In this document: one piece after another, positions 6,295-11,723 of the stretch | Position numbering within the stretch: the first letter of the stretch is position 1 | Layout of the letters: each line of letters begins with the position of its first letter | IMG/VR virus record: IMGVR_UViG_3300022745_000109 | Span: 1-34,640 of that record | Length of the DNA: 34,640 bases | Source of the DNA: a virus | Strand: one strand, 5' to 3' | The notes under the pieces: generated by a model | The model's database searches: none | What the model saw: the letters and a program-made list of their open reading frames with translations, nothing else | What the model was told of the DNA's origin: nothing | Position numbers and translations under genes: made by a program

Positions 6295-6849
6295 ATGGCT
6301 AGGCCGTCAAAGCTGAGCCCCGAGCAGTGGGCGGAGGTTGAGCGGCGGCTTGCCGCTGGCGAGGGCGTGCGCGACCTGGCGCGAGCGTTCGGCGTGAGCC
6401 CTGCTGCCGTAAGTAAACGCGGTGTTTCGAAACAAACTAAACAAGTGCAGGTTGTTGCGAAACAGCTTGCCGAGGCGCAGACCGCGCTGGCCGCGCTGCC
6501 GGTCGCACAGCAGTACACCGCGCTATCGCTCGCCGAGCAGATGCGCCGGATCGGCCGGAGCATGGCAAGCGCCGCGTCACTGAGTGCGGCCACTGCACAC
6601 CGAATGCACGCGCTCGCAAACCAGGAGGCGCAGAAGATCGACGATGCCGACCCGCTGGCAAACCGCGATGCGTTGATGGGCGTGCAGGCGCTCACGAAGA
6701 TGGGCAACGACGCAGCTGTGTTGCCGATGCAGGTGATCAGCATTGCATCCAAGGGCGCAGCCCGGCCGCCGATGGATGGCGACACGATCGAGGATGCGGC
6801 CGACGTGCCCGACGAAGTGCTGATCCGGATCGCAATGGGCCAGCAGTGA
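6295..6849 (+). CDS. terS: Small terminase subunit
   Basis: This 184-residue protein has an N-terminal helix-turn-helix: LSPEQWAEVERRLAAGEGV, then DLARAFGVSPAAVSKR as turn and recognition helix. A long central helical region (QLAEAQTALAAL to QEAQKIDDADP) would support ring oligomerisation. The C-terminal acidic tail ends before a GTGA overlap with the large terminase. Its role is to recognise the packaging site and regulate the large subunit. Position and architecture both support the call, although small terminases diverge too far for a motif-level proof. Confidence 0.8.
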   Translation: MARPSKLSPEQWAEVERRLAAGEGVRDLARAFGVSPAAVSKRGVSKQTKQVQVVAKQLAEAQTALAALPVAQQYTALSLAEQMRRIGRSMASAASLSAATAHRMHALANQEAQKIDDADPLANRDALMGVQALTKMGNDAAVLPMQVISIASKGAARPPMDGDTIEDAADVPDEVLIRIAMGQQ

Positions 6850-9344
6850 CCCCGCAGCAAGCGGCAAGTGTGGTGATGCTGCGCCGCCGAGCGCGCGACG
6901 ATCTGGTGACCTACGCCAGCCGCGTGCCTGTGCCTGGGTCGCCGATCGAGGACGCCGACGAGCGGGCGCCGATCCCGCTGATTGAGAGCCAGCAGGCCGA
7001 CCATCACCGGCTGATGCTGCGCGAGATGCAGCGATGCATGACGACGCCGCACGGGCGCCTGATGATCTTTGCGCCGCCCGGGTCAGCCAAAAGCACTTAT
7101 GCGACGGTGGTCGCCCCCTCGTGGTATCTCGGCCGCCAGCCCGACCGACGCGTAATCCTTGCCAGCTACGGGGATGAGCTGGCGCGCAGGCACGGGCGGC
7201 GAACCCGCCAGCTTGTCAGCAGCCGAGAGCACGCCGGCATCATGCGGTGCAGCCTGCAGGCCGACCAGCGAGCAGCCGAGGCGTTCGCGCTGACGAACGG
7301 CAGCGAATACCTTGCCTGCGGCATCCTGGCGGGGGTGACTGGCAACCGCGCGCATTGCCTTCTTGGGTCAACGATGGTGGCGACTGATGACGGGGAACGG
7401 CGCATAGATTCTATTGTTGAATCAGGTGATTTATGCTATGTTCTGTCGTATGACATGCATACCGGAAGATTGGTTCGTAAACGCATCAAAGCCGTGGCAA
7501 GGAGTGAAGCGAGCGATATCTATCGAGTGCACACTTCCGATGGTGGCGTGGTCGAGTGTACGAGCGATCATCGCTTCTACACCGAAAGAGGATTTGTCGA
7601 GGCGCGCTTTCTTTCCACCGATGATCGGCTCTTGCGATTGGTGCGGGGCGGTGGTGAAGCGGAATGCATTCGAAATGAAGAAGGCGGACAAAAAGGGTTC
7701 GACGGGAATCTATTGCGGGCATTCGTGCCAGCAAATGGATGTGAACAGGAAACTCGGGAAACTCGGGAAATCGTGCAAGGAGTGCGGGGCGCATCTTCCA
7801 AGATATTTTGCGGGGAGCCGGAGCGGAAAGATATTCTGTACGGACATTTGCAAAGCGGCTGGCGCAGAAAAGACGAAGCAATCCCGGGAATATGTGACAA
7901 AAGAAAGGCCGTGCGAAGTCTGCAATATGGTGTTCCGGCCGAAATCAACGAGGCAACCGGGGAGGTTCTGCTCTCGTGCATGCAAGGATCATGGTCATGC
8001 AATGCAGATGCTTGCGGAGAAGAACCCGGGCTGGAGGGATGGCGCAAACAAGGCAAGACTGGACGAGCATTCGGCGAAGAGCTTCCGCGCCGCGAAGCCA
8101 ATGATTATTCAGAGGGATGGCGGAGAATGTGTGGTGTGCGCTGCAAAATCGCAGCTACATGTGCACCACATCGACATGAATGCATCGAACAATCGATGGG
8201 TGAATTTGGTGACACTTTGCTCGAAGTGTCACATGGAGCTTCATGGGGCAGAGAGGCAGAAACCGCGCGTGTTTCTGTGGCCTTGGTTGAGCGCCTATGC
8301 AGGCCAACCACGGTGTATGACATCCAAGTGGATGAAACCGAGTGCTTTTTTGCAAATGGAGTCCTTGTCCACAACTGCATAATAATTGACGACCCAGTAA
8401 AGGGACGCCAACAGGCTGACTCGCCAGCGACGCGCGAGGCGGTATGGTCCGCATATCAAGACGACCTCAAAACCCGATTAGTTCCTGGTGGCTCGATAGT
8501 CATCATCCTCACGCGCTGGCACGAGGATGACCTGGCGGGCCGCATCCTGCCGACCAACTGGAAGGGTGAGAGCGGCGACATCATGTGCAAGGATGGGCAG
8601 GTCTGGCGCGTGCTGTGCTTGCAAGCCGAGTGCCAGACCGACACCGACCCGATGGGGCGCGCTCGTGGCGAGATGTTGTGGTCGGAATGGTTCGATGCGC
8701 GGCACTGGGACCAGTTCAGGCCGGCTGCGCGCACCTGGGCCAGCCTGTACCAGCAGATCCCCGCACCGCTCGATGGCGGCCTGTTCAAGCCACACATGAT
8801 CCAGATCATCGACGCCGCGCCGGCCGGCGTGCATTGGTGCCGAGGGTGGGACTTCGGCGCAACGACGGATGGCGACCCGACTGCGGGCGCGCTGATCGGT
8901 CGGGCGCCTGACGGCCGGTTCGTGATCGGCGGCATGGAGTGGGGCCGGTGGGGGCCGGATGAGCGCGACGCCTGCCTGATCAACACCGCCAAGCGCGACG
9001 GGCGCAGCGTGCGCATCAGCATCCCTCAAGATCCGGGCCAGGCCGGCAAGACTCAAGGCATCTACCTCACCCGCCAGCTGGCCGGATACCGGGTGACGTG
9101 CACGCCGGAGACGGGCGACAAGGTGACTCGGGCTGAACCCTTCGCGGCTCAGGTCAACGTCGGCAACGTGCTGATGGTGCGCGGCGACTACAGCCAGCGC
9201 TTGATGGACGAGATGCGCGTGTTCCCGAACGGGACGCACGATGACCAGGTGGATGCGTGCGGCCGCGCCTTCGCCGAGGTCATGCAGCCGGTGCGACTGC
9301 AGATCAACCAAGCCGCCATCGACAAGGCTATGAGCGGCAGATAG
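6846..9344 (+). CDS. terL: Large terminase subunit interrupted by an intein
   Basis: This is an 832-residue precursor with a GTG start overlapping the small terminase stop. Removing the 340-residue intein (residues 171-510) leaves 492 residues, a normal large terminase size. The ATPase half has PPGSAKST (77-84) as Walker A, IIIDDPVKG directly after the intein as Walker B, and ILTRWHEDD (about 554-562) as the coupling motif. The nuclease half has GWDFGATTDGD with Asp669 and THDDQVDA with Asp799/Asp800. The protein pumps DNA into the prohead and cuts it. The intein separates Walker A from Walker B, so the unspliced protein should be inactive as a motor. Confidence 0.95.
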   Translation: MTPQQAASVVMLRRRARDDLVTYASRVPVPGSPIEDADERAPIPLIESQQADHHRLMLREMQRCMTTPHGRLMIFAPPGSAKSTYATVVAPSWYLGRQPDRRVILASYGDELARRHGRRTRQLVSSREHAGIMRCSLQADQRAAEAFALTNGSEYLACGILAGVTGNRAHCLLGSTMVATDDGERRIDSIVESGDLCYVLSYDMHTGRLVRKRIKAVARSEASDIYRVHTSDGGVVECTSDHRFYTERGFVEARFLSTDDRLLRLVRGGGEAECIRNEEGGQKGFDGNLLRAFVPANGCEQETRETREIVQGVRGASSKIFCGEPERKDILYGHLQSGWRRKDEAIPGICDKRKAVRSLQYGVPAEINEATGEVLLSCMQGSWSCNADACGEEPGLEGWRKQGKTGRAFGEELPRREANDYSEGWRRMCGVRCKIAATCAPHRHECIEQSMGEFGDTLLEVSHGASWGREAETARVSVALVERLCRPTTVYDIQVDETECFFANGVLVHNCIIIDDPVKGRQQADSPATREAVWSAYQDDLKTRLVPGGSIVIILTRWHEDDLAGRILPTNWKGESGDIMCKDGQVWRVLCLQAECQTDTDPMGRARGEMLWSEWFDARHWDQFRPAARTWASLYQQIPAPLDGGLFKPHMIQIIDAAPAGVHWCRGWDFGATTDGDPTAGALIGRAPDGRFVIGGMEWGRWGPDERDACLINTAKRDGRSVRISIPQDPGQAGKTQGIYLTRQLAGYRVTCTPETGDKVTRAEPFAAQVNVGNVLMVRGDYSQRLMDEMRVFPNGTHDDQVDACGRAFAEVMQPVRLQINQAAIDKAMSGR
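7356..8375 (+). mobile_element. Intein in the large terminase, directly before Walker B
   Basis: The 340-residue intein begins with Cys1 (CLLGSTMVATDDGERRIDSI, block A). Block B contains CTSDHRFYT with the TxxH signature. It ends with VYDIQVD, then FFANGVLVHN (blocks F and G), with Cys as the first downstream residue. All residues needed for class 1 splicing are present. The middle, about residues 95-300 of the intein, has no LAGLIDADG or HNH motif in this frame and is an irregular Gly/Glu/Arg/Cys mixture. Read one frame later, the same DNA encodes an HNH endonuclease. The splice site falls at a conserved active-site position, typical for inteins. Confidence 0.93.
7438..8382 (+). CDS. HNH homing endonuclease nested out of frame in the terminase intein
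   Basis: In the +1 frame relative to terminase there is a 314-residue reading frame with three CxxC...CxxxC fingers (Cys66/69/93/97, 113/116/134/138 and 159/162/178/182), then NPGWRDG. An HNH core follows: Cys231/Cys234, HVHHIDMN with the HH pair at 243-244, Asn256, and CSKCH at 261-265. This order is typical of phage HNH endonucleases. AGGTGA lies eight bases before the ATG at 7438. The next ATG, at 7621, would begin just before the first finger but lacks a good binding site. The last 45 or so residues are the shadow of splicing blocks F/G. The TAA lies seven bases beyond the intein, in the Walker B codons. Confidence 0.85.
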   Translation: MFCRMTCIPEDWFVNASKPWQGVKRAISIECTLPMVAWSSVRAIIASTPKEDLSRRAFFPPMIGSCDWCGAVVKRNAFEMKKADKKGSTGIYCGHSCQQMDVNRKLGKLGKSCKECGAHLPRYFAGSRSGKIFCTDICKAAGAEKTKQSREYVTKERPCEVCNMVFRPKSTRQPGRFCSRACKDHGHAMQMLAEKNPGWRDGANKARLDEHSAKSFRAAKPMIIQRDGGECVVCAAKSQLHVHHIDMNASNNRWVNLVTLCSKCHMELHGAERQKPRVFLWPWLSAYAGQPRCMTSKWMKPSAFLQMESLSTTA

Positions 9345-9380: not shown

Positions 9381-11723
9381 GTGCGACGGAAAACACGGCG
9401 ACCAGCGCCACAGCAGATCGAAGCGCCGAAGCTGGCGGGAATGGGCCTGCGCCGCGCTGCCGCCCGCGCGGCCGAGTCCGATCGGCCCGAGAAATCCTAC
9501 GAATGGCCGGTTCAGCCGCCGCAGCTGCTGAAGGGTGTTGTGCCTGCCGGCGTGACCGCGCCAGTGATGGCACAAGACTCGCCCGCCTACACGATGGCCG
9601 CCCACGCATTCCCGGGCGGCGGCTTCCCGGGCTTCGCCTATCTCTCTCAGCTCGCCACCCGGCCCGAGTTCCGGCAGATGGCCGCCGCGCTGAGTACCGA
9701 GCTGACACGAGAATGGATCGAGTTCACGTCTTCGCAGGACGACGGCGCCGGCAGCGCTGACCGCATCACGGCGATCGAGGCCGAGTTCAAACGCCTGAAC
9801 GTGCGCGGCGTGATCCAGCGCGCGGCCGAGCACGACGCCTTTTTCGGCCGCGCTCAGGTGTTCCTTGACATCCGTGGCGCCGACCGAGCAACCCCGCTGA
9901 TTCTCGACCCGCGCACGATCCAGCCTGGCAGCCTGCAGGGCGTGGCGACCGTGGAAGCGGTGTGGACCACGCCGGCCACGTACAACGCACTCGACCCGGT
10001 GGCGCCTGATTTCTACCGGCCGCCGAAGTGGTTCATGCTGGGCCAGGAAGTCCACGCCAGCCGCCTGATGACGGTGGTCACCCGGCCACTGCCAGACATC
10101 CTCAAGCCCGCGTTCAACTTCGCTGGCATGTCGCTGTCACAGCTGGCCGAGCCATATGTTGATAACTGGCTGCGCACGCGCCAGAGCGTGTCGGACCTGC
10201 TCAACAATTTCAGCATCACGGCACTCGCAACGAGCATGGACCAGGTGCTGCAGGGCGATGACGACGGCGCATCGCTGTTTGCGCGCGCCAAGCTGTTCAC
10301 GGCGACGCGCAGCAACAAGGGGCTGATGCTGCTCGACAAGGAGCGCGAAGAGATCGTTCAGATCAACACGCCGTTGTCAGGGCTGCACGAGCTGCAGGCG
10401 CAGAGTCAGGAGCACATGTGCCTTTCAAAGGGGACGCTGATTGAGACGCGGAGAGGTCAAATACCAATCGAATTCGTTAAAGAAAATGATGAAGTCATGA
10501 CCAGAGACGGTTATGCTCCTGTAGAATGGGCGGGTGTCACCGGCACAACGTCTAGCTTTGTCGAGATTGATTCAGGTGGGTCAATCTTGCGAGCAACAAA
10601 GGAGCATCCAATATGGCTGGAAACGACTCAAGAATTTGTACCTGCGAAGAATGTTCATCATTCAAGCTTCCTCAGAAAAAGCCCCGCATGGGAATCTATG
10701 GGCAATCCATTGCATGGCGAGGGCGCTTATGGTGCTACACAAAACAAGGATATTACCGAAATACAAAAGCAGGAGGGCTGTTGCACAGGGTTATTTATGA
10801 AACCCATATCGGCCCCATTCCTGCGGGGCTTGATGTTCATCACAAAGACGAAAACCCGCGCAACAACACAATTGAAAACTTGGTTTTGCTCACAAGAGCA
10901 GAGCACACAGCAGAGCATGACCCAAAAGGTTGGTACATCCAACTTGATGGCACTTTGTATGAAAAAGTTTGTGAACAATGTGGGGCTAATTTTCAAACCG
11001 CATGGCCCAACAGAGGCAAATTTTGCTCAGACAAATGCAAACAAAAAGCATTCAAAATTAGAAAGCGGAATCAAGCAAATCCGTGAACTTCGCTTGTTTC
11101 AAGATGAGCCTGTTTACAACATAAAGGTTAAAGACGGATTTTTACCCGAGTTCTTTGCAAATGGAATCCTTGTCCATAATTGCAGCGTCAGCCGGCTGCC
11201 GTCGGTCATCTTGACCGGCATTTCGCCGAGTGGGCTCAATGCATCCAGCGATGGCGAAATCCGCATCTTCTACGACTGGATTGCAGCGCAGCAGGAGGCG
11301 CACTGGCGCGCGCCGATCGAGGTGATTTTGAAGGCCGTGCAGCTCTCGCTATTTGGTGAGACCGATCCGGACATCGGGTTCGAGTTCGTGCCGCTGTACC
11401 AGATGACGCCGGCCGAAGAAGCGGACATCCGCGCAAAGGATTGCACCACCGCGTGCGCCTACGTTGACCACAGTATTCTCGACCCGTCCGAGGTCCGGCA
11501 GAAGCTGGCGCGCGATCCGGCCAGCGGGTTCCACGGGATTGATGCGGATGCGGAGATCGTGCCGCCCGTTGACCCTGCAAATGGGATGGACCCAGCGCAA
11601 GCTGACGACGAGAGCGTCAGTGAAGCGCAGCGCCGAGCAATGGAGGCCGCAGCACATGGCCGCAGCACAATCGGCATTCCGAAATCAGTTGGCAAGGAAT
11701 TCGCGCGTGCCGACGAAGCCTAA
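9381..11723 (+). CDS. Portal protein (DUF1073 type) interrupted by an intein
   Basis: This 780-residue precursor starts at GTG with AGGAG eight bases upstream. Residues 347-600 are an intein, leaving a 526-residue protein, a normal portal length. The extein has features I associate with DUF1073-type portals: early ALSTELTREWIEF, central FGRAQVFLDI, ASRLMTVV and AEPYVDNWLRTRQSVSDLL. After the intein come SVSRLPSVILTGISPSGLNA and EIRIFYDWIAAQQE. The portal is the dodecameric ring through which DNA enters. The intein sits just before the LPSVILTG segment, a conserved part of this family. The gene overlaps the gpF-like gene. Confidence 0.88.
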   Translation: MRRKTRRPAPQQIEAPKLAGMGLRRAAARAAESDRPEKSYEWPVQPPQLLKGVVPAGVTAPVMAQDSPAYTMAAHAFPGGGFPGFAYLSQLATRPEFRQMAAALSTELTREWIEFTSSQDDGAGSADRITAIEAEFKRLNVRGVIQRAAEHDAFFGRAQVFLDIRGADRATPLILDPRTIQPGSLQGVATVEAVWTTPATYNALDPVAPDFYRPPKWFMLGQEVHASRLMTVVTRPLPDILKPAFNFAGMSLSQLAEPYVDNWLRTRQSVSDLLNNFSITALATSMDQVLQGDDDGASLFARAKLFTATRSNKGLMLLDKEREEIVQINTPLSGLHELQAQSQEHMCLSKGTLIETRRGQIPIEFVKENDEVMTRDGYAPVEWAGVTGTTSSFVEIDSGGSILRATKEHPIWLETTQEFVPAKNVHHSSFLRKSPAWESMGNPLHGEGAYGATQNKDITEIQKQEGCCTGLFMKPISAPFLRGLMFITKTKTRATTQLKTWFCSQEQSTQQSMTQKVGTSNLMALCMKKFVNNVGLIFKPHGPTEANFAQTNANKKHSKLESGIKQIRELRLFQDEPVYNIKVKDGFLPEFFANGILVHNCSVSRLPSVILTGISPSGLNASSDGEIRIFYDWIAAQQEAHWRAPIEVILKAVQLSLFGETDPDIGFEFVPLYQMTPAEEADIRAKDCTTACAYVDHSILDPSEVRQKLARDPASGFHGIDADAEIVPPVDPANGMDPAQADDESVSEAQRRAMEAAAHGRSTIGIPKSVGKEFARADEA
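10419..11180 (+). mobile_element. Intein in the portal protein
   Basis: The 254-residue intein begins with Cys1 (CLSKGTLIETRRGQIPIEFV). Block B is LRATKEHPIWL with TxxH. It ends PVYNIKVKDG, then FFANGILVHN, followed by Cys. The catalytic set for class 1 splicing is complete. The central stretch, about residues 90-225, has no endonuclease motif in this frame. The DNA is clearly more AT-rich than the host gene: 23 of 60 bases are G or C in 10741-10800, against 40 of 60 in 9961-10020. This supports foreign origin. An HNH gene lies in another frame exactly between blocks B and F. Confidence 0.93.
10613..11086 (+). CDS. HNH homing endonuclease nested out of frame in the portal intein
   Basis: In the +2 frame relative to the portal there is a 157-residue protein. 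It contains LLHRVIYETHIGPIPAG, then LDVHHKDENPRNN (HH at 76-77), IENLVLL with Asn89, and EHTAEH with His98/His102. This is a textbook phage HNH_3-type core. A C-terminal finger follows (CEQC at 120-123, CSDKC at 138-142) and a basic tail. AAAGGAG ends nine bases before the ATG, so independent translation is likely. That ribosome binding site is also the Lys-Glu codons of splicing block B. The gene stops about 20 bases before block F, so it fits between the splicing blocks. Confidence 0.9.
   Translation: MAGNDSRICTCEECSSFKLPQKKPRMGIYGQSIAWRGRLWCYTKQGYYRNTKAGGLLHRVIYETHIGPIPAGLDVHHKDENPRNNTIENLVLLTRAEHTAEHDPKGWYIQLDGTLYEKVCEQCGANFQTAWPNRGKFCSDKCKQKAFKIRKRNQANP

Follow-up and report, generated by a model that had tools for sequence, protein, structure and literature searches.

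The portal gene of this virus encodes an intein in one reading frame and an HNH endonuclease in another, over the same DNA, which raises the question of whether both readings are in use and whether the arrangement is an accident of one phage or one case of a recurring architecture. The stretch of DNA analyzed, here called the window, is an IMG/VR virus contig of 34,640 nucleotides whose portal protein resembles that of Pseudomonas phage Amjad_SA and, more remotely, those of Bcep781-like phages. The reading that best fits the locus, which we hold to be very likely and which is inferred from sequence alone, is a mini-intein in the portal gene within which a homing endonuclease gene is nested and translated on its own.

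The portal protein gene (positions 9381 to 11723, plus strand; PF06381 Phage_portal_3, 2.1e-70; phrog_146, 2.5e-94) is split by an intein but is one continuous open reading frame (ORF), with the intein in frame and open throughout. The intein comprises 254 amino acids and occupies positions 10419 to 11180 (plus strand; Hint_2, 8.5e-07; N-block HMM, E=2e-22). Its bounds are exact, with the Cys1 codon at 10419, the last Asn codon at 11178 to 11180, and the +1 Cys at 11181. The N-terminal splicing half, Hint-N, spans amino acids 1 to 93 (10419 to 10697, plus strand), and the C-terminal half, VYNIKV...FFANGILVHN with conserved V232 and A247 to N254, spans 11112 to 11180 (plus strand). Cys1, the block B motif TKEH (T60 and H63), His253-Asn254, and the +1 Cys are invariant or nearly so among relatives. 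In an AlphaFold2 model of the in-frame intein, the splicing halves reached a pLDDT of 92 to 98 (94 to 98 over amino acids 1 to 90 and 92 to 96 over the C-terminal half), and its structural matches were solved inteins, with the intein splicing fold recovered by Foldseek at a prob of 1.00. Most of the HNH-coding stretch, translated in the portal frame, reached only 42 to 59 and is predicted to be disordered. The hallmarks of a class 1 intein, namely, Cys1, block B TxxH, a terminal His-Asn, a +1 Cys, and the Hint/intein splicing fold, are thus all present, and the GC content of the intein (44%, within exteins of 65%) supports a foreign origin. These data show the anatomy of a class 1 mini-intein with every splicing residue, while actual splicing remains an inference.

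The nested gene lies on the same strand at positions 10613 to 11086, in the +2 frame relative to the portal gene [(10613-9381) mod 3 = 2], and encodes 157 amino acids. The protein matched phrog_15471 (1.4e-24) and HNH_3 (3e-18), the latter beyond the Pfam cut-off, and is not a chance ORF because the E-value alone rules chance out. Its HNH_3 core (amino acids 57 to 99; 10781 to 10909, plus strand) contains H76/H77, N85, N89, and H98, which are kept in at least 90% of relatives. A C-terminal zinc finger follows at amino acids 120 to 142 (CxxC...CxxxC; 10970 to 11038, plus strand), in which C120, C138, and C142 are invariant and C123 is nearly invariant among 60 relatives. With a core bearing the catalytic His/Asn/His and a zinc finger, the protein has the sequence features of an HNH_3-type homing endonuclease, and its identity as a nuclease is shown at the sequence level. 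The AlphaFold2 model (pLDDT, 84) had I-HmuI as its best PDB match, with a prob of 0.97 but an E-value of only 0.008. A Shine-Dalgarno sequence, AAGGAG, lies within the block B codons, 8 nucleotides 5' of the nested ATG (10599 to 10604, plus strand). The window copy has limits as evidence. The closest relative found for its HNH protein is approximately 41% identical, so selection could not be measured on this copy itself, and the absence of intein-frame stops in it (0 versus 0.88 expected; P=0.28) is not unusual when taken alone. Cleavage by the window HNH protein is likewise inferred, with only indirect support from intein-free portals and a recent insertion in a relative, and its specificity for the portal site is presumed.

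The terminase large subunit gene (terL) next door carries its own intein (terL, 6846 to 9344, plus strand; phrog_38, 2.7e-85; Terminase_6C). This intein, of 340 amino acids in the terL frame, lies at 7356 to 8375 (plus strand; PF14890 Intein_splicing, 8.5e-13), and its nested HNH ORF, in the +1 frame, extends in its longest reading from 7414 to 8382 (plus strand; HNH, 1.5e-4; phrog_1271). This is a multi-finger ORF whose recognizable finger/HNH part starts near the ATG at 7621, and it has +1 relatives in Gordonia phage Clown, Synechococcus phage S-EIVl, and two sampled loci (L034 and L073). The terL HNH frame continues across the C-terminal splicing block to a stop immediately beyond the intein end (8376 to 8382), unlike the portal HNH gene, which ends before that block. 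The 3' ends of the two inteins, at 8346 to 8374 and 11152 to 11180, share 90% identity over 29 nucleotides; the inteins are otherwise distant. The original prediction, made from the window without database searches, therefore held in its exact portal intein coordinates, in assigning to the portal intein an out-of-frame HNH_3-like core plus one C-terminal finger in the +2 frame, and in finding the architecture repeated in +1 in the adjacent terL. Its description of the two endonucleases as unrelated held only in part, since both have the HNH fold and belong to different subfamilies (phrog_15471 and phrog_1271).

The breadth of the architecture was examined in three samples drawn without regard to any nuclease. 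Single-sequence IMG/VR searches with the nested portal HNH protein and with the portal intein returned no relatives, after which loci were sampled by motif. The first sample comprised 80 IMG/VR loci chosen by a DNA pattern for the intein C-terminal motif ANGxLVHNC, of which 67 had both splicing ends in one open frame and were counted as complete inteins. An out-of-frame nuclease ORF was present in 57 of these 67: 47 encoded HNH_3 proteins (+2), 2 encoded zinc-finger HNH proteins (+1), and 8 encoded EDxHD/Vsr-like nucleases of the DUF559/MTES_1575 type (+1). The remainder consisted of 6 mini-inteins and 4 larger inteins without a nested nuclease. When this sample was pooled with the window and three named phages, Intein_splicing matched 67 of 69 in-frame translations, and LAGLIDADG matched only 1. 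The pipeline demands an open intein frame, and the resulting ascertainment bias was checked on the 13 rejected loci: six run off the contig edge, including one with a nested HNH (L081), and seven look like split inteins. The latter (L022, L029, L037, L046, L054, L065, and L068) have a C-terminal intein half and a separate upstream N-half, with intervening sequence between the two. No nested HNH gene with a broken intein frame was seen among the sampled loci, these 13 included.

Because the first sample was biased by its motif, a second motif, VYDLTVE..H.F, was used, yielding 53 distinct complete inteins. Nested nucleases were found in 15 (13 HNH_3 and 2 Endonuclease VII, all +2), in-frame LAGLIDADG_3 in 11, and in-frame HNH_3 in 4. 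Two mutually similar inteins with +2 ORFs (L156:2911-3438 and L180:6024-6551) are likely the Endonuclease VII members. In the third sample, of 66 inteins from GTDB prokaryote genomes carrying the first motif, 21 were nested: 12 DnaX-type cyanobacterial inteins with LAGLIDADG_2 (+2), 4 with HNH_3 (+2), 3 with EDxHD (+1), and 2 with HNH (+1). Of the 12 DnaX-type members, which include L285:277-1281, L278:2143-3204, L282:3186-4037, and their relatives, three were scanned against Pfam (E-values of 4e-20 to 2e-21) and the others were assigned by similarity to those three; the host gene is taken to be dnaX from the extein motif VYVIDE, without a domain search. Named phages also carry the arrangement. 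Tetrasphaera phage TJE1, Acinetobacter phage Highwayman, and Rhodobacteraceae phage LS06 have HNH_3 in +2 within terL; Clown and S-EIVl have HNH in +1 within terL; and Vibrio phages CP-T1 and K391, Pseudomonas phage MR14, and Corynebacterium phage phi673 have EDxHD nucleases in +1 within a helicase gene. In the sampled loci, EDxHD-like (DUF559/MTES_1575) +1 nucleases occur in inteins at the DE|CHH helicase motif (L130, L131, L132, L134, L055, L061, and others). Long alternative ORFs without a nuclease match, such as those of L023, L161, L169, L196, L214, and L270, were left out of all counts. The nested fractions vary with the motif and are not global frequencies.

Each of the five nuclease types occupied one frame: HNH_3, LAGLIDADG_2, and Endonuclease VII in +2, and zinc-finger HNH and EDxHD-like (DUF559) in +1. 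For HNH_3, 65 of 65 nested copies were in +2, as were 4 more in prokaryote genomes, and no family departed from its single frame in the three samples or the named phages. This frame conservation is shown. Collectively, the samples support the proposal in the original prediction that the mechanism recurs and that inteins with nested endonucleases form a class; the two outcomes that would have refuted it, an absence of further cases and a lack of frame conservation, were both tested, and neither occurred. Its suggested count of frames by motif scan placed every family member in the same frame, and the two frames seen in the window therefore represent two lineages rather than random outcomes. It did not foresee that EDxHD-like, LAGLIDADG, and Endonuclease VII nucleases would also be nested, or that cellular genes (cyanobacterial dnaX) would be reached. 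The expected number of stops for HNH_3 is approximately 1 to 5 in the register used versus approximately 10 to 30 in the other, and most +1 members also sit in the stop-poorer register. The simplest account of the frame lock, which is an inference, is a filter in which only a stop-poor register could be fused without killing the host gene.

Whether both frames are in use was addressed with a stop test, in which the nuclease protein sequences of 62 nested loci were fixed and synonymous codons were shuffled. The intein frame contained 0 stops versus 250.9 expected, while the third frame, as a control, contained 1126 versus 1120.3 expected. Eight free-standing relatives showed no avoidance in the register used by inteins (52 stops versus 51.6 expected), and the copy in BP10, an Obolenskvirus with a terL neighborhood like that of Highwayman, contains 12 stops, compared with 0 in the nested copy of Highwayman. 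The intein frame is therefore kept open when the nuclease gene is nested and not when it is free, and this stop avoidance is shown. In pairwise comparisons, the nuclease frame had an excess of third-position changes and a higher amino acid identity than the other two frames, and the intein-frame reading of the same DNA was barely more conserved than the unused third frame. In a Nostoc/Desmonostoc DnaX pair (L318 and L319), substitutions in the LAGLIDADG frame numbered 1 at first, 2 at second, and 18 at third codon positions (binomial p=1e-6). Purifying selection on the nuclease frame is thus shown in relatives, not in the window copy, and selection acts mainly against stops in the outer reading and on the sequence itself in the inner reading.

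Evidence of mobility came from intein-free relatives. Related phages have intein-free portals, and that of Amjad_SA aligns across the junction. Highwayman (L004) and Acba_21 (L382) are identical across the first 1000 bases of terL and another 1200 of portal; the intein is present in Highwayman only, identity drops solely towards the insertion site (0.97, 0.96, and 0.92), and the +1 residue in Highwayman is the Cys needed for splicing in place of the Leu of Acba_21. A recent, precise insertion in this relative is shown by the comparison, and the pattern looks like co-conversion after homing, which is inferred. The two phages, near-identical, with and without the intein and with changed flanks at the site, make up a naturally occurring pair suited to testing homing. 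Among DnaX inteins of related strains, some have an intact nested LAGLIDADG gene, two (L299 and L323) have a LAGLIDADG frame interrupted by stops and an intein frame that is still open, and two (L287 and L315) have internal deletions. A 148-amino-acid Microcystis mini-intein (L295) is identical to a 430-amino-acid form (L262) over 292 bases at the start and 128 at the end. This range of intact, decayed, and deleted forms fits a homing cycle in which the nuclease decays independently.

Free-standing relatives of the nested HNH proteins adjoin terminase genes in BP10, PAE1, SN1, FBPa53, EauM-23, CL2, Shemara, and Poludnitsa. At loci L007, L133, and L256 to L260, from unrelated phages, free-standing HNH relatives lie beside terL, mostly between terL and portal. 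In the HNH tree, nested copies are interleaved with three free-standing copies (BP10, FBPa53, and Poludnitsa) and one in-frame copy, L142. Distances between splicing domains correlate with those between HNH proteins (r=0.53; 0 of 2000 permutations). Both long association and occasional exchange between intein and HNH gene are indicated.

These observations suggest the following mechanism, for which there is no experiment. A homing endonuclease gene would have been inserted, in another reading frame, into the loop between the splicing halves. Ribosomes in the portal frame would read the stretch of nuclease DNA as an unstructured linker free of stops, and the intein would then excise itself to leave an intact portal protein. 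Other ribosomes would initiate at the internal ATG at 10613, behind AAGGAG, and produce the HNH protein, which may cut intein-free portal genes, such that repair would copy intein and nuclease in together. The two products share DNA but no amino acid sequence, so either may evolve or decay without harm to the other. In line with internal initiation, the first start codon was ATG in 58 of 65 HNH_3 loci and followed the nearest preceding HNH-frame stop by a median of 4 codons, in most cases falling at intein codon 72 or 83 to 93. A Shine-Dalgarno match of at least 4 preceded 25 of 66 early ATGs (background, 15%; p=2e-5), and a visible one is absent in many AT-rich members. Internal initiation is favored over frameshifting but is not shown.

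Two rival explanations are very unlikely, and a third is all but excluded. First, two compensating indels may have shifted a conventional in-frame endonuclease intein out of register, or programmed frameshifting may yield a Hint-N/HNH fusion. In-frame HNH_3 inteins do exist, in cyanophage CL131 (PMC6293099) and in L142, L182, L191, and L206, and the in-frame L142 copy falls inside the nested clade. However, the frame is constant over a deep tree, with every nested HNH_3 copy in +2, and the free-standing HNH copies beside terL provide a direct source. Against frameshifting in particular, -1 slippery heptamers were not enriched at the entry to the HNH frame (5 of 65 loci versus approximately 0.24 expected per locus), and the short distance between the last HNH-frame stop and the first start leaves little room for a shift. 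Second, the HNH frame may be a dead remnant and the element now a mere mini-intein. Decayed nested nucleases are known in this class, as the stops and deletions among DnaX inteins show, but the window HNH gene is full length, none of the conserved catalytic or zinc-binding residues is missing from its product, and its Shine-Dalgarno sequence is strong. Third, phage introns often bear HNH ORFs, and a group I or II intron could carry this one with the likeness to an intein being accidental, but no Rfam family, and hence no conserved intron RNA structure, reached its gathering score anywhere in the window, the insert does not interrupt the host frame, and the splicing motifs and intein fold are specific.

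With the nested, independently translated gene as the preferred reading, a bolder one, which we consider likely, is that inteins have a second general architecture, out-of-frame nesting, which in phages is on a par with the in-frame type, and that at least five nuclease families entered inteins by this route, every family being confined to a single alternative frame, usually the stop-poorer one. If true, this would account for many inteins thought to be endonuclease-free, including cyanobacterial DnaX inteins. If inteins are scored for endonucleases in the host frame only, the nested class is counted as endonuclease-free and mobility is underestimated; the nested gene within terL is unannotated in TJE1, Highwayman, LS06, Clown, and S-EIVl. 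Since HNH proteins related to one another are found next to terL as well as within terL inteins as nested genes, the class also offers a concrete route by which a free-standing homing endonuclease may join a self-splicing element. It further supplies many natural examples of gene overlap in which the main constraint on one frame is to stay free of stops, while the other codes for an enzyme.

A 2016 survey covered the terL and portal inteins of mycobacteriophages, and its relevant passages describe no out-of-frame endonuclease (PMC5050341). No description of nested out-of-frame intein endonucleases was found in the accessible literature; a preprint (10.1101/2025.01.02.630785; cited in PMC11855218, from the same group), whose title on "non-canonical" intein architecture may overlap, and older work on DnaX inteins lie outside this scope, and priority is therefore open.

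Among known systems, free-standing HNH genes beside terminase genes encode related proteins but lie outside inteins and show no stop avoidance in the intein register. Split inteins, reported from fractured genes whose halves flank an endonuclease gene (Dassa 2009), likewise have an independent gene between intein halves, but their host gene is divided into two ORFs, whereas the portal gene is one continuous ORF overlapping the endonuclease gene. Conventional large inteins, whether with LAGLIDADG or with HNH_3, also have the endonuclease between the splicing halves, and the in-frame intein of the CL131 dCTP deaminase, which splices, even uses the same Pfam family; in these, however, the endonuclease domain is in the intein frame and is part of the spliced-out protein, whereas the portal HNH is a separate product in +2. 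The cyanobacterial DnaX intein has the same architecture, with a hidden LAGLIDADG_2 ORF in +2 (2e-21), and differs in its cellular host gene and nuclease family. Out-of-frame HNH insertions in phage methylases, the ShiLan domain and the Pacc40 insertion, were published in 2025 (PMC11855218) and resemble the portal insert in having an HNH gene in another frame of the insertion, an open host frame, and a homing-like distribution. The authors found no splicing domains there, so the prediction is that the host protein retains the insert. The portal insert, in contrast, has splicing domains, and what it encodes in the host frame is a complete intein, which should excise itself.
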